A program made the position numbers and the translations under genes. Positions 6,420-44,670 of a DNA stretch of 64,000 nt are shown piece after piece; position 1 is the stretch's first letter, and every line of letters starts with the position of its first letter. This DNA comes from Morinoia aosen. Its lineage: Eukaryota > Arthropoda > Malacostraca > Amphipoda > Talitridae. Location of the stretch: positions 27,770,120-27,834,119 of the forward strand of contig CM059568.1 of NCBI GenBank assembly GCA_030386875.1, given 5' to 3'. Below the pieces are notes generated by a model. That model was not told the origin of the DNA. It saw only the letters and a list, made by a program, of their open reading frames with translations, and searched no databases.

Positions 6420-6720
6420 GTTAAAATTCTACGTCTCTATCAGTCTGTAAAAAGCGACGTTTCGAGTTAACAAACATCATCCTCAGGCTGAATATATGCA
6501 GAAAAATTTTAGAATCATACTGATAAAACTGCAATCTAGTAGTTAAAACTACTTCAGATGCAGTAAAATGTAGAAAATCACAGCAAAACCGAATCTTGAG
6601 CAATAACAAAAATCATCGACTTAATACACGTCATATTAATTCATTTTATAAAACCCAAATGCATAAGAATTAGAAATTGATGAACCAGATTTTAAGAACC
6701 GGAGATGTCGATTAAAGTCT
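6420..6720 (-). mobile_element. Penelope-like element 3' end (copy A)
   Basis: The reverse complement aligns by eye with the 3' region of copy B (about 7860-8045). Shared landmarks in order are an ATTGCATCT-like word, TTTATCA-TGATT, TTCTGCATAT, CCTGAGGATGATGTTTG, GTCGCTTTT-like sequence, CTGATAGA and GAATTTTAACGA. No reverse transcriptase remains; only the terminal region with a hammerhead-like motif is seen. It points left and its partner points right, so the pair is head-to-head. Confidence 0.55.
6440..6500 (-). ncRNA. Hammerhead-like motif, copy A
   Basis: Minus strand reads CTGAGGA (6486-6480), then a degenerate stem II region, then CGAAAC (6464-6459) and GTCGC. The hammerhead core is CUGANGA and GAAA; position 7 may be any base, so CTGAGGA fits. 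The stem III form AC-GTC-GC is a 2-bp stem with triloop in which the closing A-U has become A-C. The core is largely kept but stem II is weak, so activity is doubtful. Confidence 0.4.
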
Positions 6721-7639: not shown

Positions 7640-8045
7640 TATAATGTTGTTAAAAAAGAGCAAATAATAGAAGCATTAGATATCCATGACCTTAAACGTT
7701 CCCTTAACGAAAACACAAATGACTGCAGCTTAGAACTCAGATGCATCCGATCGATCGTCCACTTCGCGCTTGTCTCTTCTGAAATCAACATCCACCGTTG
7801 TGTAATGCTGTCTGGTCTTGTGATTGCATATTTCTGTAGTCCAAATATTGTCTCTCTAATCATTTCTTTTCTAGTATTTTCAACATTTTTATTGCATCTA
7901 ATGTGGCTTTAGTATTACATTGAATTTTTATCAATGTGATTGTAAAATTTCTCTGCATATTTCCACCCTGAGGATGATGTTTGTTACATGGGAATGTCAC
8001 TTTTATAAGCTGATAGAAGTATGGAATTTTAACGATTGACAATAT
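7640..8045 (+). mobile_element. Penelope-like element 3' end (copy B)
   Basis: Plus-strand counterpart of copy A. A hammerhead-like motif lies at 7968-8000: CTGAGGA, a stem ATGT/ACAT, then GGAA where GAAA is expected. In the short stem III the C-G pair of copy A appears as T-A (TGTCA), which keeps pairing. Upstream sequence at 7640-7860 could be decayed coding sequence of the endonuclease end, but I cannot align it with confidence. Confidence 0.5.
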
Positions 8046-8700
8046 ATCGCATTATGACACGTGAAGAACTCGGATGACATTCCCTTTCAAGATAATTAAT
8101 TTTCATGTTATTGTTGCACAAAAGCCAAACCGAACGAGAAGTAAATAATAATACGACGAGTTGCAACTGTGGAAACAAACTGGATCATTCTGCCTCGAAT
8201 GCATTTCAGACTGTGCGGCTGCTGTTGGATAATTGTTTTGTTGTTTCAAGCGTTACGTTCTGCATGTAATGGTCTCTAAATAAACAAAGCAATAAAATTA
8301 TTGATGAGAAACTGAGTGAATACACCAGGAAATTAAATCAGGACCATTCTACACTTGTGTGTATAGATGGCCTAATTTTGTGCCTTCAGATGTAACAATC
8401 TCTCCAGATTATTCAGATGTAATAATTATCTCTTCTCCAGGAGAAAGATATCGACGTAACACTGATATAAGAACCCTATATCAGGAACCGAGAAGGAATG
8501 GAACTTTTACCCTAAAGCTGTGTGAAGCTATCCGTTTAGAAAGAAAGAAAAATAACTCTGGTAGAAATTCCAGAGCGCCAACTAAGAAGTTTTCGAATGA
8601 ATTTCCGGTAAATTACTTTTTTTCAGCATTATTTCTAATTACTTCTTCAAAACCAATATGAATAAATTTTACGTGATGTTGCATCTACAAGCCATCACTT

Positions 8701-10930
8701 GTTTAATTTTAATAAAAATAGGAGAGCAAAAATCAGTGACAAAAATTTCATTACACTGACATCGTTCCGGGCTAATATCCATCATCAGCTCATTAAAAAA
8801 ATCTTACATATATCACTGAAATAGAGATGAACGTAGATGTACGAACAAACCAACACGGATTTAAAAGTAAAAAAAATTAAAAAGTAAAAATGCAGTAAAT
8901 TACACAAACACAACTTAGAACCTATGATACTAAGAGGGTATGAACTCAACTGGTTATTACGTGAAGGCTTGCATTTAAAAATGAAAAGCGATTCTAAAAT
9001 TCTAAGATCTATAACACTTGAAGCTACGCGTACTACTTTAAAATGACTAGAGTGAGGAGTTACATTGCACGTTGCAGCATGATCGCGAACAGCGGAGTGA
9101 GATGGACGGGTCAATCGAACACCAGTACGATAACTAACTCCAACGTGCTCGGCCACTCTAGCTCCGAGAGTAAGTGTGGTCAAGCCAAAGTACTCGGATG
9201 CACATCGTGCACAACTGTATGAATACACTAGTGAGGCCTGCATGGTAGAAGGAAGTTTGTCTTTATAATTGGAAAAAAAGTTAAATTTGTTTTTTAATCT
9301 CATATAAAATTTTATGCCTGTAAGATATCTAGAAAAGAGGGCAAGTAATTCAGTTTTGAGTATTTCGGAATTCGATCCAAAATATGGTAAACACAAATAA
9401 ATTGGTTGAGAGATTGGTTCTTGAATGATCGAATTTGGTTCGACGTTAGCATTTTGAAACTTGTTTGCCAAAAACTTTCTAATTTGGTATTCAATAAATG
9501 AAGACCTGAAAGCATTTTGGCGCAAAATTCTGTTAAAAATTAGAATTCTAAATGAAAGACGCTAAATTAAGAACAAATTTTGAAAGCGCGAGCAAGCAAA
9601 GTTGTAATACAATTCAGTTTAAAATGGAAAGTGCAATAACCATGAAAACTCATTCCTATAGGCCAGAAAAGCATTTGTTCGGTATACCGACACATCAAGT
9701 TTATTCCCTTGTTTAATCACTAAACAATCCAGGAAAGGTTTTTATTTTTGTTCTTCACATTCCATAGTGAATCTTATATTTTTATGTTTACTATTTATGA
9801 AGTTGAAAAGTAATGTTGCATGGGATTCCTCACGGAACAGCAAAAAAAGTATCGTCAATGTAATGACGGTAACATATGGGCCAGAAGTCATCAGGACACA
9901 GCTTTAGCCATCTAGTTTCGTAAAAGGACATGAATGTATTTACGAAAGTTGGGGCAAGAGGTAGGCCCATACCAAGGCCCTCAATTTTCTTATTAAACTT
10001 CCTATTGAACACAAAAAAATATTTTACCGTAAGTTCCAATTGGGTTCTGAAAAATTTACGAGAAAGGCCATAAACTAGAGAATTAGGATCAGTAAAAAGT
10101 TGCCACAGGCATGAATCTATAGTTTCTTCCAACGGGATTTTAGTGAATAGGTTTTCAATGTCAAATGATGCCATAAAAAATTTTTATGCATTACTAATTT
10201 TGCTTAAATCATTAACAAAAGATTGAGAGTTCTCTATCATAAATTCATTTCGAGAACTAGGGTTCAAGATCAGCACCAAAAATTTAGCGACAGAAAAGCC
10301 TGGAGTATTATTTGCAGCAAATATCGGCCTGAACTTAAACATAGTAGAAAAATTGTTTTTATGTATTTTTGGCAAACCATACAGTTTACCGGGCCCCGAA
10401 CCCGAAACAAACATTTTACTGTAATTATCATCCAACAACATTTTCAATTCTTTTATTTTACGTAGAAAACTTTTATTTTGTCCTCTATTCTAAGTGCATA
10501 AGTGTGAATCGGCTCTCATATCAATGGGAACTTAGACCTGTCAGAGATGATAGCTGTCATGCTTTCAATATATTTGTTTTTAGCAACAATGACTACTCCA
10601 CGACCTTTGTTTGGTCAAAAAACAATTGTATCCTTATTATGGCCAAATTGTTTCAATAGTTGTATTTCAGACTTAAAAATACAAGACGAAAAAATCTTTT
10701 TAGGAGAAAAGTTATAATAATATTTGGCAGCTATGCTCCGAAGCTAATCTGTAAATTCAGGAATAGCATCCCCGCTTCTATTTTTCAGAACTAAAAGTAT
10801 TTAATCAGAAGCTAAAAAATAACAATAAAATTACATTCTATACACAGGTAAACAAAAATCTAAACCAAAAGCCAGCAGAAACTTGACACGGTCAGGTACA
10901 ATTGTTGAGCTATAGTTGAAAATACCTTCA
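8701..10930 (-). pseudogene. Penelope-like retroelement, RT plus endonuclease (copy C)
   Basis: Read on the minus strand, 10,930 to about 8,915 encodes a nearly full Penelope-like polyprotein broken by stops and frameshifts. In order: a VPDRVKFLLAFGLDFCLPV-like N-terminal motif, DKGRGVVI-like sequence near 10,600, YGLPKIHK and RPI-AANNTPGF (10,400-10,260), SFDIENLFTKIPLEET (10,165), GMGLPLAP, and the RT catalytic YIDD box near 9,860. The C-terminal domain (about 9,330-8,915) has SCARC followed by ARVAEHVG and RPSHSAVRDHA, the zinc-binding and GIY-YIG-type nuclease end of this family. The probable native stop (TAG in copy D) is AAG here (plus 8913-8915), extending the frame. Not functional as written, but the RT core is well preserved, so the insertion is fairly recent. 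Confidence 0.85.
8733..8819 (-). ncRNA. Decayed hammerhead-like ribozyme, copy C
   Basis: Minus strand: outer stem arms TCAGTGA and TCACTGA (plus 8813-8819 and 8733-8739), core CTGATGA (8788-8782), stem II region and GGAAC in place of GAAAC (8766-8762). Stem III AC...GT encloses a 7-nt loop and position 17 is G, which does not support cleavage. Two core defects predict an inactive ribozyme. Confidence 0.5.
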
Positions 10931-11013
10931 TTTGGATCAAGTGGGCGAGTACTGCAATCAATTCCCAGGTTGAAGGGCTTCCTCGAGTGCGTACGAAGTG
11001 TAGCACACCTAAA

Positions 11014-11830
11014 ATGGTTTTAGGTCTTCATTTATTGAACACCAAATTTGAAAGTTTTTAGCAAACAAGTTTCAAAACGCTTATGTCGAACCAAATTCGA
11101 TCATTCAAGAACCAATCTCTCAACCAATTTATTTCTGTATACCATGTTTTTGTCCGTATTCCGAAAAACTCAACACTGAATTACTTGCCCTTCTTTCTAG
11201 ATATTTTACAGGCATAAAATTTTATATGATAGTAAGAAACAAATTTACAATTGTTTTTTTTTCAATTATAAAGACAAACTTCCTTCTACCATGCAGGCCT
11301 CACTAGTGTATTCATACAGTTGAGCACGATGTGCATCTGAGTACTTTGGCATGACCACACGTACTCTCGGAGCTAGAGTGACCGAGCATATTGGAGTTAT
11401 TTATCGTACTGGTGTTCGATTGACCCGTCCATCTCACTCCGCTGTTCGCGATCATGCTGCAACGTGCAATGTAACTCCTCACTCTAGTCATTTTAAAGTA
11501 CGTGTAGCTTCAAGTGTTTTAGATATTAAAATTTTAGAATGGCATTTCATTTTCAAATGCAAGCCTTCACTTAATAACCAGTTGAGTTCATACTCTCTTA
11601 GTATCATAGGTTCTTAGTTGTGTTTGTGTAATTCACTGCATTTTTACTTTTAATTTTTTCTACTTTCGAATCCTTGTTTATATCTGTTTGTACATTTACG
11701 TTCATTTCTATTTCAGTGATAAATCTTTGATTCTTTTCATAAGCTGATGATGGGAATTAGCCCGAAACGTTCTCAGTATAATGAAACTTTTATCACTGAT
11801 TCTTGCTCTCCTATTTTTATTGAAATTGAA
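11014..11830 (+). mobile_element. Penelope-like element, 5'-truncated (copy D)
   Basis: Plus-strand partial copy of the element at 8701-10,930, starting within the region equivalent to about 9,520 of copy C. It encodes the endonuclease end: a frame at 11,351-11,617 reads LGARVTEHIGV and RPSHSAVRDHAATC and stops at TAG after SIIGS. Upstream the same domain is interrupted, with a cysteine codon of SCARC changed to TGA near 11,322. The 3' end shares TTGCTCTCCTATTTTTATT with copy C. C and D face away from each other, with about 80 bp between their inner ends. Confidence 0.85.
11713..11799 (+). ncRNA. Hammerhead ribozyme, type I, intact core (copy D)
   Basis: All invariant core positions are present: CTGATGA (11,744-11,750), stem II GGG/CCC, GAAA (11,764-11,767), stem III AC (11,767-11,768) with GT (11,776-11,777) around a 7-nt loop, and A at position 17 (11,778). 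Stem I is extended by an 11-bp perfect helix, TCAGTGATAAA (11,713-11,723) with TTTATCACTGA (11,789-11,799), plus TTTCAT/ATGAAA nearer the core. Penelope-like elements are known to carry hammerhead motifs in their terminal regions. Predicted cleavage lies between 11,778 and 11,779. The base pairs next to the core on stem I are imperfect, so activity is likely rather than certain. Confidence 0.65.
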
Positions 11831-11995
11831 GAAAATTCCAGAAAATGTACTTGTTTAATTCTTTTTAACTGTGACGCTCAAATCAAATTCATGTCCCTCT
11901 ATCCTATTCAAATCTTTATCTCTGATGAATTAATTCCATGTGTTTCCCTGTAGTTAAAATATTACCAGAGCACGGATAAAACATCATTGCTTAGA

Positions 11996-15204: not shown

Positions 15205-17198
15205 TCTCTACACCCTTAACTGGAATTTATGGAACATATTCGAGAACACAACTCCTTTTTCTTTACGCCTACAAACTCCTCCGATGTAATTGCGTGCATA
15301 AACAACATGAAAAATAAATCGAGTGGGTTACAAACGTTTCCAACTAAAATACTTAAAATTATTGCTGATATTGTAGCCCCGCTGATATCCAATATAATTA
15401 TTAACCAGTCTCTCTTACTAGGCACTTTCCCGAACTCCCTCAAAGTTGCTAGAGTAACCCCTATCTTTAAAAATGGTAAAAAACCTGTGTAAACAATTAT
15501 CGACCTATCTCCATGTTACCAATTATTAGCAAGGTATTCGAGAAAATTGTGTAAAAAAAGTGTACTCTTATTTTGAACAAAAATCATTTCTCTATGATAA
15601 ACAATACGGCTTTCGCTGTGAAAAATCAACAACACAGGCAATATTAAATCATTTACAATTCCTTTATTCTAATATAGATAACGGAAAGACTGTCTTCTCT
15701 GTATTTCTTGACTTTCAAAAAGCATTCGATTGTGTGGACCATAAAATACTACTCTCGAAACTACACTGTTATGGCATTCGAGGGATTGCCCATGATTGGT
15801 TCTGATCATACCTAACAAATCGGAAGCAATACGTTGTCATTGACGATGCAAAATCGTTCCCACAGAAAATTAGCCATGGAGTTCCACAAGGATCTGTTCT
15901 TGGGCCTCTCCTTTTTCTGATTTTTATCAATGATATCATTAAATCTACATCATTTTTTAAATTCATACTTTTTGCCGATGACAGTACGCTTTCTGCGGTC
16001 CTTCCGAACCAAAATCCTACTACGATTGCGGAGAGTATAAATAATGAACTCCATAAGGTTTCACTGTGGCTTAAAGCTAATAAAATAAGCCTTAATATCG
16101 ATAAAACAAATTATATTACATTCTCATACAAGAAAAATATATCTCTACCATGCAATAAAATTGGCGAAGGTGAAATCAAAGAAACCAACTCATGTAAATT
16201 TCTGGGCATCATAATAGATAAACATCTGACCTTCAAAGAGCACATCGCTAATATTAGTTCTAAATTATCAAAATCCATCGGAATCCTGAATAAAGTTAAA
16301 AGTTTCCTACCAGAAACAGCCTTACTAATGCTTTATCGAACGCTCATTTCACCATACTTGCAATACGGAATAGAAGCATGGCATGGAACTGATAAAAATA
16401 AAACCAATATAATTTTTACTCTGCAAAAAAAGAGCCATCAGAGCGGTAAAGAACCTAGAATATAATGCTCACACAAATGATTTATTCAAAAATTTACAAA
16501 TACTTAAGCTCTCGGATCTCTACAAAATCTCCATCTGCAATTTCATTTACAAAACATTAACTAATGACGGCGACAATAGCCTACAACAATCATTAACTGC
16601 GCAAACTGGTCATCACGACCATTTAACGCGAAATAGAAGTAAATTCATGCTTCCTTATTATTCAAAGGCCCGCTCGCAACACAGTATACTATTCGTTGGA
16701 ACTAAAAATTGGAACTCAATACCTGCGGAGATCCGTGAAAGTAATTCTTACAAGGTATTCAAAAGAAATCTTGAGACTCACTTCTTATCAGAATACTAGT
16801 CGTGTAAGATCACCAAGTCAAATCCTGCCTCCTACATGTCTGGTTCTAATAATGCAATTTGCCATGAGTAATATCGCCGATTTTTAGTCTGCTCCTAAAT
16901 CGTTATCGAATATACTGTTAAGTATTGTCCATATGACCTATATTGTAAAATTAAACATCAATATCGACTTCATTATCCTGTTGATCAGTCTAATGCGAAA
17001 CTAGGCTAAGTGAATTAGGTTAAACATTATTGTACACCCTAGAATAACGTAATGGTAGGATGCCCTAGAAATCACTGAACTTATTCGGGCCCACAGGTAG
17101 CTATACTCAAATTTGACCATTGTACTAGACTTAAGAAACATTCTACCTCTGTATCACCTGTGGTAAATAAATTGTTTAAATTGTTTAAATTGTTTAAG
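15205..17198 (+). pseudogene. 5'-truncated LINE (CR1/Jockey-type) reverse transcriptase
   Basis: Coding sequence for an apurinic-endonuclease-class LINE RT begins near 15,205 and runs to a stop at 16,798. Motifs in order: DVIACINNMKNKSSG, VTPIFKNG, NYRPIS, FLDFQKAFDCVDHK, HGVPQGSVLGPLLFL-FINDI, the catalytic FADD (near 15,974), LNIDKT, FLGIIID, YLQYGIEAWHG and the C-terminal ARSQHS-WNSIPAEIRES. Defects: a stop/frameshift near 15,490-15,555, TGA at 15,803, and one extra A in the run near 16,425. The endonuclease half is missing, a normal 5' truncation. The 3' UTR ends in TTGTTTAAA units (17,171-17,198), the microsatellite tail expected of this group. A second copy of the same tail lies at 31,499. 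Confidence 0.88.
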
Positions 17199-25129: not shown

Positions 25130-25790
25130 TGTCAAATATGTCTATAGCTTTCATTTACGTGTCATTCCGGGTAATAATTTTAAATGTTACTTCTTTTTCC
25201 CTGTACAAGGATACGCTTCCCATTGATATGCGAGCGTCTTTGGGTTTCTCTTATAGTTGTGTGCAGTGCACATCTTCGTACGTCAGAATGACGTCACGAA
25301 ATTTTTACATCAGAGTGGCCGAACGTCGGGGCAGAAGCTTCCATACCGGAATCAGCTAGCACACCCATCGCATTCTGCAGTGCGAATCATGCCGAAAAAC
25401 ACAATGATCCTTTATCTCATGCCGATTTTAAAATTTTAGACTCTGCTTCGACCACTTATGACCTCTGAATTTCAGTCCTTACATATTCTCTAGCTAAACC
25501 CTGATCTGGAAAATATGGACAGTTCATACCCTTCACAAATATTAAATAAGAAGAAACCTCTTCATTACTAGCCCAATTTCATTTCATGTCTAGATTTTGA
25601 GTGTTTTCCGTTTTATATTATTTTTCATCAGTGAGCTTTCTATATTTTCCTCTCATGAAATATTTTAATGCCTTCAATTCATTGTACTTTGATCTTTTAT
25701 TTGAGACATTACTATTTGTTTTTTGAACTAATGATGGAGCGGGACTCCGAGACGTTTTCTTTGTGAAGATAATTAATTTCTTCGAAATTA
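25130..25790 (+). mobile_element. Penelope-like element 3' relic (copy E)
   Basis: The plus frame at 25,190-25,360 reads FSLYKDTLPIDMRASLGFSY, then SCVQC, RVAERRGRSFHTG, aligning with YKDKLPSTMQASLVYSY, SCARC and RVAEHVGVSYRTG of copy C. A stop follows and the rest is eroded. A hammerhead-like end is at 25,728-25,755: CTAATGA (core G5 changed to A), stem II GGAG/CTCC around a 5-nt loop, then GAGAC for GAAAC. Ribozyme predicted dead. Confidence 0.65.
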
Positions 25791-35339: not shown

Positions 35340-35775
35340 ACCAGAAATGGCATCTCAACTTCTGTACACTCAACGTACAAGCTAAACTCATCTGTGAATT
35401 ATCTCGTACAAGCTAAACTCATCTGTGAATTACCTGTCTCTCGAGTACACAACATCTCCAACAGCTCAACACTCTACTTCTGCGAAAATATCTCCCATCT
35501 CGCCTTGATCTCTGATGCTATAGCTTTTGTGCAGCGTTATTTTGCAAAGTCATCTTAAGCGGTAATTTCGTATTCCTGTTGTAAACTGTTTGCTTATCTA
35601 CTCATCTTGCGCTGCGAGTTCGGACATGTGTGTTGCGTCTGATGTAGCTTAAATATTAGCTTTGCATTTTTATCAGCATAACTGTAAATAATTTCTACAT
35701 ATTTCGGGCCTGATGATGATGTTCGTAACATCGAAGCGTCGCCATGTACAGAATGAGTCTAACATTTCATAGATT
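35340..35775 (+). mobile_element. Penelope-like element 3' end (copy F)
   Basis: The 3' part (35,650-35,775) shares with copies A and B the ordered words TTTTTATCA, TTTCTACATATTT and CCTGATGATGATGTT, followed by GAAGCGTCGC. Upstream is non-coding as it stands and contains a 31-bp tandem duplication (35,374-35,404 and 35,405-35,435, one difference). The element lacks its reverse transcriptase. Confidence 0.6.
35690..35760 (+). ncRNA. Hammerhead-like ribozyme, copy F
   Basis: Core CTGATGA (35,710-35,716), strong stem II GATGTT (35,718-35,723) with AACATC (35,727-35,732) around a 3-nt loop CGT, GAA (35,733-35,735), then stem III GC-GTC-GC, in which the usual A-U closing pair is replaced by G-C, and C at position 17 (35,743). 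The core is formally intact. Stem I next to the core pairs poorly (TACAT/ATGTA only after a bulge), so cleavage is uncertain. Confidence 0.5.
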
Positions 35776-38325
35776 GACTGCGTAATACAACTAATTGGTA
35801 ATTTTTTCCAAAATTTATTACTTAAAAACTAGAGCAATCGAGTTGTGAGACCGATGAGAGCACAGTTCCATGGTTTGCACCGTCAGAAAGGTTTCAATTT
35901 GGTTTACACCATACTTTTATTATGACATTTTATACTTTGAACTATGACGCTCTTATTCAATAAAATAATTTTTTGTTGTATAGTCGCATATCCTGACACT
36001 AGCCGCCAACACTAGTCTAAATGTAGAAATTAGATCGCACATGACTGCTGCACTTGGCTTTTGACTGCCTGAGACGACGGACGCTCTCGTGTTTGCCGTC
36101 GACTTGAGGCAGCGCAGTCTGGGAATTGGCTGGTGTCGGAGTTGTGTTCTCAAGCGTGGACTAACGAGGCGGCGAGCTGCTCGTCTCTGCGCTTCCACAC
36201 TTCCTACGTTATAATGGCAGCTTAATTTTAGATGTGTGAAATCAAGCATTGTCTTATTGTGAACGAACAGATGCCGGGCGTAAGGGATTGGGAAAATCTA
36301 TTCATTGAAATGAAATATTAATATTAATGCAATTGAGAAACGTTTCCGTGAGGACATTCTTCTACAAAATCCACAATTCTGTCTGCTTCAATATCATTTG
36401 AGGCAGAACTACACCTAAGTACACAAATGTGCAGACGGTAGAGAGCTCGGAGTAGGCTAAGAGGAGACTGTAAGCCGTACTGACGATACGGCAGGGCATG
36501 CGCTGTATTGCCAGTTCAGTGCACTGGGCCAAGTTCCAGGAGTGAGAGCTGAGTACTGGTCTGTGGTGAAGAGCGGTCGCACGCGGGCTCACAAAACACA
36601 GCGGTCGCACAAGGAATTCCGATTTTCTTAGTCGTATGAGAATTTCCACGCGTATAGAGTTTCTCAAATTATGCCAGTTGAAACAATTTCGAATATTTTC
36701 ATCTCTACAATTGTTGGACGGGAGAGACATAAGTATTCGGCACGCGAGAAAATGATGGAAATAAATAAATTGAATTGCAGGAAGCCAACAGTCAAATAAC
36801 CAGGGTGGAAGACTAATTAATTCTCTATAGAACAGACTACGACGTCCGCTTACTTTCAGTGTGTGTCTTTAAATGGCAACAGAAGCAAAACTCCCAGCGC
36901 GGTGGCTGCAGAGGCGGCATCAGTAAGTAACGCGGTCGACAACCGCGCTCGCTACGTGCGGCTCTGATGCGAGTTATTAAGCCCGTAATACCCGCCGGCC
37001 TCGTATTTGAAATGCGGTGGAATAAAACTACATTTTCTTCATTTTTGTACAAACTTGGCATTAGGAGCGGATTCAGAACTTGTCTGCTCTTTGATGTAGA
37101 AGCTAAATATAGATACACATGCTTCGGTGTATCACATGCTTCGGTTCGTAGAAATGAAAAGTCTAGATTTGCAGCTTTTACTATCGTGAATTTTGTTTGG
37201 TTAAAATGAAGCGTGTGTGATGTTGAGCTTAATCTTCTCTTTTATTAGTGGTAATTAATTTGAAACAACGACAAAGAAGATTCAGTTCTTTTAATCACGA
37301 AGACATGAGATTTTAGCGCCTCCAACTCTTTAGTTTTGAGAGTCGGGCGCGTCCAACAAAACGAGGGCGGCTGATTTCAGGCCTTTGTATCACATGCTGC
37401 TCTGCGTCGCAAAGACTTGATTCTTAGAGAACTGACGGCGCGGCATTGTCGGGGCCGAGACGAGAAAAAGGAAATGTTCCATTCATGGGAATGTCCCTTC
37501 GAAAAGAAGCGTTAAAATGGAGCTCATCGCTCGCCAGGAATGTCAGCAGCGTGAAACATTACCAAAGATCTAATGGATCTTGACATTTGCAATCTAAGCG
37601 GGAAAGCATTTTAAAATGCGGGTTTGTACGCAGTAGTCGAATGGTAAGTTCTTGACATGACTAAGAATAGGAAAGTACTGAGACCATTAGGCCTTCTTGG
37701 AATTGAAAATGTTAGATTTCGGTCTTCGTTTGAAATACGTTGCGAATTTTATTTTTCTCACAAATGTGATTTATATTTCTCCTCTAATGATTTTTCTTGT
37801 ATCACAGTTTTTATCACGAATTAAAAGAAGAATAGCCCATATTTGTTTGTCGTTACGGCACGTGTATTAAATACTGAATGAGGAAAGAGAGGCTGAAAAT
37901 ACAAAAACGTTTCTGCATAATTCGAAGGGCTTTTATACGTACGCAGAAAACTGTATGTTTTCAAAAAAATTATGATTCGCATTGACATTTGACTTCAACG
38001 AGACGCGTTTCTAAACTCAGTCTTACCCCCAGCGCCTTTAAAGTTTGGTACTATTATGTACTTCAGCGTTCATCAATATTGCTACAACCTTTACAAAAAT
38101 TACAGCAACCCCTACCAATATGGCTTCAAACTATCACAATATTGCTTCACGCTGCTATAATATAGCTTGATTAGGAGTGCGACCACCTGAGTCACTTCAG
38201 CATTATGTTGTGTTTTCGTTCTAGCACGTAGCAAAAATATTTTAGCTTGTATTAATATTTCTTTATGCTCAAACATTGCTTCATATCTTTGAGCATTAGT
38301 ATTGTTTCAGCATGTTTTATGATTG
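35776..38325. other. Gene-poor stretch with GC-rich patches
   Basis: Patches at 36,030-36,210, 36,430-36,640 and 36,850-37,010 are CpG- and GC-richer than their surroundings. A minus frame at 36,730-36,362 has 122 codons; another at 36,180-36,020 has coding-like third positions. On the plus strand ATGGCAACAG at 36,871 starts a 17-codon frame ending at a perfect donor-type GTAAGTAA near 36,920. None can be joined into a gene. The region 38,040-38,320 has loose repeats (ATTGCTTCA, ATGGCTTCA) leading into the satellite. Confidence 0.35.
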
Positions 38326-41300
38326 CTACACACTCCCCACTACTGCTGCAGCTACATCAACATTACACCTCCTGCACTACGCTGGCTACACACTCCCCAC
38401 TACTGCTGCAGCTACATCGACATTACACCTCCTGCACTACGCTGGCTACACACTCCCCACTACCGCAGCAGCTACATCAACATTACACCTCCTGCACTAC
38501 GCTGGCTACACACTCCCTACTACCGCAGCAGCTACATCAACATTACACCTCCTGCACTACGCTGGCTACACACTCCCTACTACCGCAGCAGCTACATCAA
38601 CATTACACCTCCTGCACTACGCTGGCTACACACTCCCTACTACCGCAGCAGCTACATCAACATTACACCTCCTGCACTACGCTGGCTACACACTCCCCAC
38701 TACCGCAGCAGCTACATCAACATTACACCTCCTGCACTACGCTGGCTACACACTCCCTACTACCGCAGCAGCTACATCAACATTACACCTCCTGCACTAC
38801 GCTGGCTACACACTCCCCACTACCGCAGCAGCTACATCAACATAACTCCTGCACTACGCTGGCTACACACTCCCTACTACCGCAGCAGTTACATCAACAT
38901 AACTCCTCCTGCACTACGCTGGCTACACACTCCCTACTACCGCAGCAGCTACATCAACATTACACCTCCTGCACTACGCTGGCTACACACTCCCCACTAC
39001 CGCAGCAGCTACATCAACATTACACCTCCTGCACTACGCTGGCTACACACTCCCCACTACCGCAGCAGCTACATCAACATTACACCTCCTGCACTACGCT
39101 GGCTACACACTCCCCACTACCGCTGCAGCTACATCAACATTACACCTCCTGCACTACGCTGGCTACACACTCCCCACTACCGCAGCAGCTACATCAACAT
39201 AACTCCTCCTGCACTACGCTGGCTACACACTCCCCACTACCGCAGCAGCTACATCAACATTACACCTCCTGCACTACGCTGGCTACACACTCCCTACTAC
39301 CGCAGCAGCTACATCAACATTACACCTCCTGCACTACGCTGGCTACACACTCACTACTACCGCAGCAGCTACATCAACATTACACCTCCTGCACTACGTT
39401 GGCTACACACTCCCCACTACCGCAGCAGCTACATCAACATTACACCTCCTGCACTACGCTGGCTACACACTCCCCACTACCGCTGCAGCTACATCAACAT
39501 TACACCTCCTGCACTACGCTGGCTACACACTCCCCACTACCGCAGCAGCTACATCAACATTACACCTCCTGCACTACGCTGGCTACACACTCCCCACTAC
39601 CGCAGCAGCTACATCAACATTACACCTCCTGCACTACGCTGGCTACACACTCCCTACTACCGCAGCAGCTACATCAACATTACACCTCCTGCACTACGCT
39701 GGCTACACACTCCCCACAACCGCAGCAGCTACATCAACATTACACCTCCTGCACTACGCTGGCTACACACTCCCTACTACCGCAGCTGCTACATTAACAT
39801 TACACCTCCTGCACTACGCTGGCTACACACTCCCTACTACCGCAGCAGCTACATCAACATTACACCTCCTGCACTACGCTGGCTACACACTCCCTACTAC
39901 CGCAGCAGCTACATCAACATTACACCTCCTGCACTACGCTGCTACACACTCCCTACTACCGCAGCAGCTACATCAACATTACACCTCCTGCACTACGCTG
40001 GCTACACACTCCCTACTACCGCAGCAGCTACATCAACATAACTCCTCCTGCACTACGCTGGCTACACACTCCCCACTACCGCAGCAGCTACATCAACATA
40101 ACTCCTCCTGCACTACGCTGGCTACACACTCCCTACTACCGCAGCAGCTACATCAACATTACACCTCCTGCACTACGCTGGCTACACACTCCCTACTACC
40201 GCAGCAGCTACATCAACATTACACCTCCTGCACTACGCTGGCTACAGACTCCCTACTACCGCAGCAGCTACATCAACATTACACCTCCTACACTACGCTG
40301 GCTACACACTCCCTACTACCGCAGCAGCTACATCAACATTACACCTCCTGCACTACGCTGGCTACACACTCCCTACTACCGCAGCAGCTACATCAACATT
40401 ACACCTCCTGCACTACGCTGGCTACACACTCCCTACTACCGCAGCAGCTACATCAACATTACACCTCCGGCACTACGCTGGCTACACACTCCCCACTACC
40501 GCAGCAGCTACATCAACATTACACCTCCTGCACTACGCTGGCTACACACTCCCCACTACCGCAGCAGCTACATCAACATTACACCTCCTACACTACGCTG
40601 GCTACACACTCACTACTACCGCAGCAGCTACATCAACATTACACCTCCTGCACTACGCTGGCTACACACTCCCTACTACCGCAGCAGCTACATCAACATT
40701 ACACCTCCTGCACTACGCTGGCTACACACTCCCTACTACCGCAGCAGCTACATCAACATTACACCTCCTGCACTACGCTGGCTACACACTCCCCACTACC
40801 GCAGCAGCTACATCAACATTACACCTCCTGCACTACGCTGGCTACACACTCACTACTACCGCAGCAGCTACATCAACATTACACCTCCTGCACTACGCTG
40901 GCTACACACTCACTACTACCGCAGCAGCTACATCAACATTACACCTCCTGCACTACGCTGGCTACACACTCCCCACTACCGCAGCAGCTACATCAACATT
41001 ACACCTCCTGCACTACGCTGGCTACACACTCCCCACTACCGCTGCAGCTACATCAACATTACACCTCCTGCACTACGCTGGCTACACACTCCCCACTACC
41101 GCAGCAGCTACATCAACATTACACCTTCTGCACTACGCTGGCTACACACTCCCCACTACCGCAGCAGCTACATTAACATTACACCTCCTGCACTACGCTG
41201 GCTACACACTCCCCACTACCGCAGCAGCTACATCAACATTACACCTCCTACACTACGCTGGCTACACACTCACTACTACCGCAGCAGCTACATCAACATT

Positions 41301-44046
41301 ACACCTCCTGCACTACGCTGGCTACACACTCCCTACTACCGCAGCAGCTACATCAACATTACACCTCCTGCACTACGCTGGCTACACACTCCCTACTACC
41401 GCAGCAGCTACATCAACATTACACCTCCTGCACTACGCTGGCTACACACTCCCCACTACCGCAGCAGCTACATCAACATTACACCTCCTGCACTACGCTG
41501 GCTACACACTCCCTACTACCGCAGCAGCTACATCAACATTACACCTCCTGCACTACGCTGGCTACACACTCCCCACTACCGCAGCAGCTACATCAACATT
41601 ACACCTCCTGCACTACGCTGGCTACACACTCCCTACTACCGCAGCAGCTACATCAACATTACACCTCCTGCACTACGCTGGCTACACACTCCCTACTACC
41701 GCAGCAGCTACATCAACATTACACCTCCTGCACTACGCTGGCTACACACTCCCCACTACCGCAGCAGCTACATCAACATTACACCTCCTGCACTACGCTG
41801 GCTACACACTCCCTACTACCGCAGCAGCTACATCAACATTACACCTCCTGCACTACGCTGGCTACACACTCCCTACTACCGCAGCAGCTACATCAACATT
41901 ACACCTCCTGCACTACGCTGGCTACACACTCCCCACTACCGCAGCAGCTACATCAACATTACACCTCCTGCACTACGCTGGCTACACACTCCCCACTACC
42001 GCAGCAGCTACATCAACATTACACCTCCTGCACTACGCTGGCTACACACTCCCTACTACCGCAGCAGCTACATCAACATTACACCTCCTGCACTACGCTG
42101 GCTACACACTCCCTACTACCGCAGCAGCTACATCAACATTACACCTCCTGCACTACGCTGGCTACACACTCCCTACTACCGCAGCAGCTACATCAACATT
42201 ACACCTCCTGCACTACGCTGGCTACACACTCCCCACTACCGCAGCAGCTACATCAACATTACACCTCCTGCACTACGCTGGCTACACACTCCCTACTACC
42301 GCAGCAGCTACATCAACATTACACCTCCTGCACTACGCTGGCTACACACTCCCCACTACCGCAGCAGCTACATCAACATAACTCCTCCTGCACTACGCTG
42401 GCTACACACTCCCTACTACCGCAGCAGCTACATCAACATAACTCCTCCTGCACTACGCTGGCTACACACTCCCTACTACCGCAGCAGCTACATCAACATT
42501 ACACCTCCTGCACTACGCTGGCTACACACTCCCCACTACCGCAGCAGCTACATCAACATTACACCTCCTGCACTACGCTGGCTACACACTCCCCACTACC
42601 GCAGCAGCTACATCAACATTACACTTCCTGCACTACGCTGGCTACACACTCCCCACTACCGCTGCAGCTACATCAACATTACACCTCCTGCACTACGCTG
42701 GCTACACACTCCCCACTACCGCAGCAGCTACATCAACATAACTCCTCCTGCACTACGCTGGCTACACACTCCCCACTACCGCAGCAGCTACATCAACATT
42801 ACACCTCCTGCACTACGCTGGCTACACACTCCCTACTACCGCAGCAGCTACATCAACATTACACCTCCTGCACTACGCTGGCTACACACTCACTACTACC
42901 GCAGCAGCTACATCAACATTACACCTCCTGCACTACGCTGGCTACACACTCCCCACTACCGCAGCAGCTACATCAACATTACACCTCCTGCACTACGCTG
43001 GCTACACACTCCCCACTACCGCTGCAGCTACATCAACATTACACCTCCTGCACTACGCTGGCTACACACTCCCCACTACCGCAGCAGCTACATCAACATT
43101 ACACCTCCTGCACTACGCTGGCTACACACTCCCCACTACCGCAGCAGCTACATCAGCATAATTCCTCCTGCACTACGCTGGCTACACACTCCCCACTACC
43201 GCAGCAGCTACATCAACATAACTCCTCCTGCACTACGCTGGCTACACACTCCCCACTACCGCAGCAGCTACATCAACATTACACCTCCTGCACTACGCTG
43301 GCTACACACTCCCTACTACCGCAGCAGCTACATCAACATTACACCTCCTGCACTACGCTGGCTACACACTCACTACTACCGCAGCAGCTACATCAACATT
43401 ACACCTCCTGCACTACGCTGGCTACACACTCCCCACTACCGCAGCAGCTACATCAACATTACACCTCCTGCACTACGCTGGCTACACACTCCCCACTACC
43501 GCTGCAGCTACATCAACATTACACCTCCTGCACTACGCTGGCTACACACTCCCCACTACCGCAGCAGCTACATCAACATTACACCTCCTGCACTACGCTG
43601 GCTACACACTCCCCACTACCGCAGCAGCTACATCAGCATAATTCCTCCTGCACTGCGCTGGCTACACACTCCCCACTACCGCAGCAGCTACATCGACATT
43701 ACACCTCCTGCACTACGCTGGCTACACACTCCCCACTACCGCAGCAGCTACATCGACATTACACCTCCTGCACTACGCTGGCTACACACTCCCTACTACC
43801 GCAGCAGCTACATCGACATTACACCTCCTGCACTACGCTGGCTACACACTCCCCACTACCGCTGCAGCTACATCAACATTACACCTCCTGCACTACGCTG
43901 GCTACACACTCCCCACTACCGCAGCAGCTACATCAACATTACACCTCCTGCACTACGCTGGCTACACACTCCCCACTACCGCAGCAGTTACATCAACATT
44001 ACACCTCCTGCACTACGCTGGCTACACACTCCCCACTACCGCAGCA
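38326..44046. repeat. 60-bp satellite array, about 95 units
   Basis: A head-to-tail array of a 60-bp unit beginning CTACACACTCCCTACTACCG and ending CTGCACTACGCTGG. Variation is limited and discrete: CCCTAC/CCCCAC/CACTAC, GCAGCAG/GCTGCAG, CATTACACC/CATAACTCC, CATCAAC/CATCGAC/CATCAGC. One unit of 57 bp (about 38,845) and one of 59 bp (about 39,942) break the register. The strand is C/A-rich and G-poor. The usual unit has no stop in any plus frame and no ATG, so long frames (up to 572 codons) start only in the flank. They have no signs of selection as proteins. Confidence 0.98.
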
Positions 44047-44670
44047 TCTCGCCTCATCACCGCAAGGACGCGCGTTTATACGACCCAGAGGAGACTAAAT
44101 TCGTCCCTGCGACGCTCATATCGACGTGAACGCCCTGCTCGAGGCAGCGCATCTCGCCGCGCTATCGCACAAAATTGCCGGGTTTACCGTTTTTTGATCA
44201 TCTGGGAACACCTGGGTGCTCGGTAAAATCCTCTTTTCGGTATTTTTTGCAGCAGAGGCAAAGCCGTTGACGTCATACAGAGGCGGAAGTTATCCGTAGT
44301 GTTTTCCCAGCATCATATGACGTCCGAAGGTATTTCACGCGTGTCAAGTACTGAAGTTGACTTCTCTAGAATAATTCATTCCCTCAGTTAGGATGATCAC
44401 AGAGGAAATGATCATCCTAATGAACTCGATAAAATCTCCCTTATCGCATTGTACTAGTTGGTAGCGCTGAAAATTTCTCAGGTGAACTGCCTTAATTAGC
44501 AGTTAGTAGTACAATTGTATGATTGTTTTCCTTTGTTAGATTTCGATTCCAATCTACAAGTATGGCCTTCAATTGTGTCACCTATACACCCTTTCCAGAT
44601 ATCGATCTCTGTATTTAGTATTTTTTGCTCGATCTCTGTATCTGTATGGATTATGCTCCATCCGGCGCAA
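44047..44670. other. Unique spacer between satellite blocks
   Basis: About 620 bp unrelated to the 60-bp unit separates the main array from a short second block. The first 130 bp are GC- and CpG-rich. Array phase is not kept: the left side stops after CCGCAGCA and the right resumes at TTACACC, about 11 nt of the unit missing. No target duplication was found, so a deletion/rearrangement origin fits as well as an insertion. Confidence 0.6.
44388..44420. repeat. Perfect 12-bp inverted repeat
   Basis: TTAGGATGATCA (44,388-44,399) and TGATCATCCTAA (44,409-44,420) flank a 9-nt loop. A stable hairpin or binding-site pair inside the satellite spacer. Confidence 0.85.

Follow-up and report, generated by a model that had tools for sequence, protein, structure and literature searches.

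The window, a 64-kb stretch of Morinoia aosen DNA, contains a head-to-head (5'-to-5') inverted insertion of a Penelope-like element (PLE), the two arms of which lie within a 12-bp target site duplication (TSD), ACTTGTTTAATT (Table 1). The reference unit for both arms was taken from a head-to-tail array on contig C11. Arm A covers residues 152-854 of the 854-aa open reading frame (ORF) of this array unit in three pieces, and arm B, the BLAST match of which spans 11011-11864, covers residues 653-854 in two pieces. Pfam reported RVT_1 (E 1e-8) as the only domain of the 854-aa ORF, with no GIY-YIG domain among its matches; judged from its motifs, we take the reverse transcriptase to be of the telomerase-like kind, and a C-terminal Y..C..C..YFG..R..EH-like stretch, recognized by eye, may represent a GIY-YIG endonuclease. 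The initial annotation of this locus had proposed a type I hammerhead ribozyme at the 3' end of a truncated PLE, and this setting is borne out, as BLAST to the array unit shows a 5'-truncated copy with the motif near its 3' end, and the motif lies at the PLE 3'/unit junction, as is typical of minimal PLE hammerheads. That hammerheads occur in this class of retroelements, as the annotation also stated, is a known association according to passages of PMC6155905 and PMC7761336. In addition, the pseudo-LTR/tandem layout, head-to-head inverted copies, a TSD and an optional tail of ~30 bp were all found, traits that passages of PMC3846280 and PMC11167929 list for PLEs. When 30 motif loci were inspected with 1.5-kb flanks, 18 had homology to PLE protein, and 8 of the other 12 belong to one repeat beginning CTGAAGAYATCG, which does not resemble a PLE end.

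Table 1. Coordinates of the PLE insertion and of the parts of its hammerhead motif in the window
Feature	Position	Strand	Basis or remark
PLE insertion with arm A (-) and arm B (+) inverted head to head (5' to 5')	8709..11848	.	BLAST to array unit; 12-bp TSD
Left TSD, ACTTGTTTAATT	8697..8708	+	Flank comparison
Right TSD, ACTTGTTTAATT	11849..11860	+	Flank comparison
Arm A, PLE copy, 5'-truncated, frames broken, untailed 3' end	8702..11013	-	BLAST to array unit
Motif relic in arm A, 20.1 bits	8751..8798	-	GGAA for GAAA and CGAU for CGUU; change at stem I 1.1
Arm B, shorter PLE copy, tailed 3' end, carries motif	11011..11848	+	BLAST to array unit
Minimal PLE-type hammerhead motif	11734..11781	+	43.4 bits, model R1 without this element's family
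Proximal stem I, 5' side UAAG (partner CUCA, 11772-11775)	11740..11743	+	A11741·C11774 mismatched
Core CUGAUGA and conserved unpaired U after A9	11744..11751	+	Letters; sister-locus alignment
Stem II GGG/CCC, 3 bp remaining, fourth pair lost	11752..11763	+	R1 alignment
Core GAAA, palindromic ACGU, H17 = U; expected cut 11771/11772	11764..11771	+	Register by covariation; cleavage predicted
ATG, counterpart of first post-cut ATG in the array unit's 854-aa frame	11781..11783	+	9 nt after expected cut

The letters on which the annotation was built are present in arm B: CTGATGA is read at 11744-11750 (+) and GAAACGTT at 11764-11771 (+), which together hold the CUGANGA and GAAA core of a minimal PLE hammerhead (11744-11750 and 11764-11767), and the pattern CTGANGA..CGAAAC occurs twice in the 64-kb window versus 0.14 expected. 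The segment around the core (11713-11799) is closed by a perfect 11-bp inverted repeat, and this 87-mer folds at -22.1 kcal/mol (z -3.12), with 1 of 200 shuffles as good. All letters required for a self-contained type I hammerhead are thus present in an unusually stable segment, and the annotation had drawn a 2-bp AC/GU stem III with a 7-nt loop, an A at the cleavage position (A11778) and an 11-bp distal stem I that would hold the fold together. However, the comparison with sister loci makes this arrangement hardly credible, as set out below.

Sister loci were sought in the genome (1.99 Gb, 29 contigs) with the pattern CTGANGAN{8,36}GAAACGTH, in which the core and the ACGT are fixed and the stems are free, and which gave 23,057 matches versus 1,363 for the reversed pattern. 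From 100 places listed, 70 loci were used (30 given and 40 fetched, the last 40 being picked by eye for variety), of which 69 had a readable motif (L076 was missed) and 35 were left after removal of redundancy at 80%; a 28-locus alignment, namely these 35 minus 7, had stem II pairing, but not stem I pairing, as part of its selection. Among the 35 non-redundant loci, pairing between the three nucleotides that follow GAAACGUH and the three that precede CUGANGA is seen in 81 of 105 cells (47.5 on average in shuffles, with 0 of 2000 shuffles reaching 81), and stem II is paired in 119 of 140 cells (shuffle mean 80.3, again reached by 0 of 2000). In these loci, sliding the pairing by 1-4 nt on the 3' side lowered the first three pairs to 0.23-0.57 per position. 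In the 28-locus alignment, two-sided changes were found at all three stem I pairs, and the covariation score of stem I was 0.876, compared with 0.271 for shuffles and at most 0.223 for slid registers. Since stem I starts directly after GAAACGUH, there is by covariation no room for a stem III helix with a loop, and the cut expected of a hammerhead lies at U11771/C11772, with ACGU in place of stem III. These data support a predicted cut at this site and not after A11778; as such, neither the 2-bp stem III nor the cut that the annotation had placed between 11,778 and 11,779 is supported.

Further observations speak against the fold cut after A11778. The downstream GU-A on which it relies is not kept by the sister loci, and the distal stem, although perfect in the window copy as had been noted, is not a family-wide feature: among 36 aligned copies, 30 read ATCAGTGA, in which a G breaks the 11-bp stem by one mismatch, 2 read ATCACTGA (including the window copy) and 4 read neither. 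The distal stem was thus rejected as a functional feature. In addition, an array copy, folded together with its flanks, is no more stable than its shuffled versions (z -0.38).

At the level of the family, the motif has stems I and II with no or a very short stem III, and the window copy as modelled has one mismatch in each stem. Stem II begins one letter past A9, this letter being U in 33 of the 35 loci; the base pair 10.1-11.1 directly after A9 that passages of PMC3088659 give for the canonical type I hammerhead is not a feature of these loci, the pairing at that register being 0.14. A coding reason for the AUG that is conserved as A9-U-G was considered and rejected, as 12 of 50 loci have an A9 frame that stays open across 27 codons, no more than for the other two frames (12 and 13 of 50), many of these loci being decayed copies. 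On its anatomy, the motif would be classed with the minimal PLE hammerheads, and we consider it highly probable that the window copy is a decayed member of this known type I group, with a cut after GAAACGUH.

The initial annotation had made a match to the Rfam type I hammerhead models at gathering threshold its test, and by that measure it failed: no Rfam hammerhead was found at this threshold across the 64-kb window, and searches of 1.6 kb and of 141 bases around the site gave none at E<=10 either. However, 20 sister loci carrying the motif were likewise without a hammerhead match at E<=10, so that Rfam is blind to this motif and uninformative as a test, and it was dropped as a decisive one. 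At low thresholds, the site itself drew Rfam matches from C/D snoRNA families alone, namely Afu_300 (18.4 bits) and SNORD36 (18.5 bits), as might be seen if the site encoded a snoRNA or another structured RNA and not a hammerhead. Both scores are far under the gathering thresholds (40 and 30), the 20 sister loci gave no match to a common snoRNA family over the motif, and the motif is explained by its position in a PLE; the probability of a snoRNA is in our view close to nil. A covariance model (R1) was made from 28 other loci, with the family of the window copy excluded, and searched with filters off. It gave 43.4 bits for the window copy (E 4e-9), up to 48.2 bits for other members of its family among the fetched loci and 47.5 bits for array units, with one array unit at 46.0 bits.

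The annotation had described the ribozyme core as intact. This is true of the 16 core letters compared, which are unchanged in the window copy relative to the array unit, but not of the stems, as stem I has an A·C mismatch and the fourth pair of stem II is lost. The mismatch arises at stem I position 2.3, where the window copy has A and most copies have G (2.3/1.3; UAAG for the UGAG of most family copies), a change found in 2 of 35 family rows, the window copy and L016. In addition, divergence from the array unit is ~11.5%, at which an unchanged core is expected by chance with P = 0.14, and there is thus no special preservation of the core in the window copy. The best monomer fold predicted by RNAfold is not a hammerhead in either the window copy or the array copy, CUGA being paired with UCAG, and the hammerhead pairing has an energy of 0.0 kcal/mol in the window copy and -7.7 kcal/mol in the array copy. 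Judged from this decay in its sequence, the window copy alone probably cleaves slowly or not at all, and it has no known role. The ATG just past the expected cut may serve as a translation start. As a separate observation, a pyrimidine-rich run ending in CAG (TTTTCAG/TTTACAG), which resembles a 3' splice site, is often found just upstream of the motif (11700-11720, and many sister loci).

The 3' ends of the copies bear on whether cleaved RNA is used for insertion. The unit was mapped in the window, in the array and in 16 of the fetched loci, with 14 single places and one array neighbour left out of the 40 loci listed. Counted from C3, with the cut at +28, the motif-bearing copies end at ~+80 to +94 and at +104 to +122, and all eight pairs for which both 3' ends could be called combine a long, tailed end with a short, untailed one, both past the cut. 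L018, with BLAST ends at +113 and +94, is a possible ninth mixed pair that was less sharp and left uncounted; pairs in which an end was not visible (L013, L016, L021, L025, L026 and L027) and single arms (L015, L017 and L024) were also outside the count. At L013 and L015 the gapless calls of the 3' end were wrong due to indels, BLAST giving +114 and +109. Because the query for the loci spanned the motif and a further 59 nt beyond the cut, any copies that end at the cut would be under-represented among them; partner arms were chosen otherwise, and of these, L027 ends at +20, L021 before the motif and L013, L016 and L025 further upstream, none of them at the cut. TSDs of 8-16 bp were found on all nine pairs tested (9 bp in the L023 pair), 6 of 9 being at least 12 bp, compared with 0 of 72 controls in which flanks of different loci were paired (longest shared word 9 bp; at most 8 bp in 71 of 72). 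The family membership, the pair structure and the duplication are as such read from sequence comparison.

As reverse transcription started at sites past the cut, these copies cannot have been templated by linear RNA that ended there, and with both 3' ends past the cut, the templates carried an uncut (or rejoined) site. Thus, the suggestion that this lone copy processes element RNA loses its footing, since its own 3' end, as in sister copies, lies beyond the cut. The same 3' ends would also fit a dead relic, namely an element that moves without ribozyme activity and merely carries the motif along, as would the loss of the core in arm A of the window; in addition, passages of PMC11167929 describe the ribozyme of PAc (Poseidon, Anolis carolinensis), the only PLE tested biochemically, as needing protein help and as dispensable for insertion in vitro. 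However, stems I and II covary across many families of this genome, and core changes amount to 4 of 560 cells in 35 family rows versus 78 of 3,115 elsewhere, a comparison that is only suggestive, as the family rows were picked by DNA similarity and are related. We regard a dead relic as unlikely, though deserving of serious consideration.

Under the preferred reading, that of a minimal PLE hammerhead, we infer cleavage, dimer action, protein help and a role in element RNA as follows. In transcripts of head-to-tail arrays, the motif would separate the units by a cut 9 nt upstream of the first ATG in the long frame. With stems I and II around CUGANGA/GAAA, a self-complementary ACGU and no stem III hairpin, the motif might cleave as a dimer in which two copies are joined by their ACGU, the form in which such motifs reportedly work best, and, as reported for one PLE, with the help of protein. 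At insertion, a staggered target cut would allow both ends to prime reverse transcription at two nearby sites of the element, ~50-90 nt past the hammerhead cut, which would yield head-to-head arms within one target duplication.

The array on contig C11 (C11:63675954-63701933, loci L009-L011) shows the same layout in multimeric form. It is a head-to-head PLE of ~26 kb with 7.7 and 1.9 units, the minus arm consisting of 114 nt, 7 units and 1,844 nt and the plus arm of 2,321 nt, 1 unit and 83 nt. The arms meet at a 4-bp overlap, one outer end is long and the other short, and the whole array is flanked by a 12-bp duplication, ATATTTTATTCA. The unit measures 2,702-2,704 bp, with the 854-aa ORF, and successive full units are 99.6-99.9% identical; of the 24 variable substitution sites across ten array units, 22 differ in a single unit only. 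From this sequence structure, the array is probably one multimeric two-sided insertion, which perhaps grew later. Later enlargement by unequal exchange could indeed have contributed, as the two shared sites and a T-run indel fit the duplication of block m2-m3 into m4-m5, i.e. at least one two-unit duplication, and the array could likewise have come from reverse transcription of a long linear array transcript. Here we speculate that the hammerhead might make 2.7-kb circular monomer RNAs, cut and rejoined, from what would be an autonomous retroelement that codes for protein, which the reverse transcriptase would round repeatedly from both ends of the target cut, giving multimers in one step. We consider this quite improbable; if true, it would explain arms of 7.7 and 1.9 units inside one 12-bp duplication and start sites beyond the cut, which circularization would have made whole, and it would account for the mostly private differences between units.

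Minimal type I PLE hammerheads deficient in stem III were reportedly described by Cervera & De la Pena in 2014 and by Lunse et al. in 2017. The present motif shares with them CUGANGA, stem II, GAAA, the lack of helix III, the location in PLE pseudo-LTRs and the tandem copies, and may differ by the additional conserved U between A9 and stem II (33 of 35 loci); the window copy also differs by the stem I mismatch. Passages of PMC6155905 and PMC7761336 likewise present PLE hammerheads as minimal versions without helix III that may act as dimers, and report such dimer action. According to passages of PMC11167929, PAc has a junction hammerhead, a tail, tandem units and extension of both target strands, as found here, and two start sites of reverse transcription ~30 nt apart downstream of the cut, the present element having two sites as well. 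However, the PAc ORF is said to begin at stem II, so that the cut falls 26 bp within it, whereas here the first ATG of the long frame lies 9 nt past the cut; and for PAc in vitro these passages give no difference between strands in the start site, whereas here both sites are used, one per arm, in 8 of 8 genomic pairs. The Penelope of Adineta vaga, in passages of PMC3846280, shares head-to-head inverted pseudo-LTRs and partial tandems, with TSDs of 8-10 bp and a 31-bp tail that is optional on one inverted pseudo-LTR; self-priming is favoured there, whereas in the C11 array the two arms are both multimeric and share a single TSD. Metazoan retrozymes, as described in passages of PMC7229834, share type I hammerheads in tandem repeats and a circular RNA model, but they are short and non-coding (RNAs of ~170-400 nt), whereas the unit here has 2,702-2,704 bp and an 854-aa ORF.

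Given that PLE hammerheads are already known, the window copy changes little and is locally ordinary. The thousands of natural variants in this genome are enough to fix the fold and the cut register by covariation, and the same variants show why an Rfam covariance search misses them. In addition, the C11 array, as a clean and young multimeric head-to-head insertion in one target duplication, opens a long-standing question to testing, namely the purpose of the hammerhead and the choice between tandem transcripts and circular RNA as the template that PLEs copy.

Several other features of the window and the genome were observed. A second PLE 3' end lies at 25138-25766 (+), with a protein fragment at 25138-25356 (46% identity) and a hammerhead relic at 25718-25766 (+; 37.5 bits), the core of which is changed to CUAAUGA and GAGA. 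A motif that reads CUGAGGA and CGAAACGUC scores 34.4 bits and has a weak partner at 13.6 bits (E 0.77); the two lie at 6446-6496 (-) and 7958-8008 (+), within inverted arms (6450-6546/7908-8004) that have the appearance of a second head-to-head pair; no PLE-protein homology was found at these two motifs. A further motif at 35700-35750 (+; 31.8 bits) has CUGAUGA unchanged and GAAG for GAAA. Elsewhere in the genome, a repeat with CTGAAGAYATCGTGA..GAAACGT fits the search pattern without a stem II and is not a PLE end (L033, L036, L042, L044, L048, L054, L057 and L058). Another retroelement, recognized by eye from pieces of a reverse-transcriptase-like ORF, is located at 15216-16465 (+) of the window. 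Finally, a minisatellite at ~38205-44100, with 95 copies of a 60-bp unit and a strong bias of C over G (GC skew to -0.56), has long open frames in all three forward frames and is probably non-coding.
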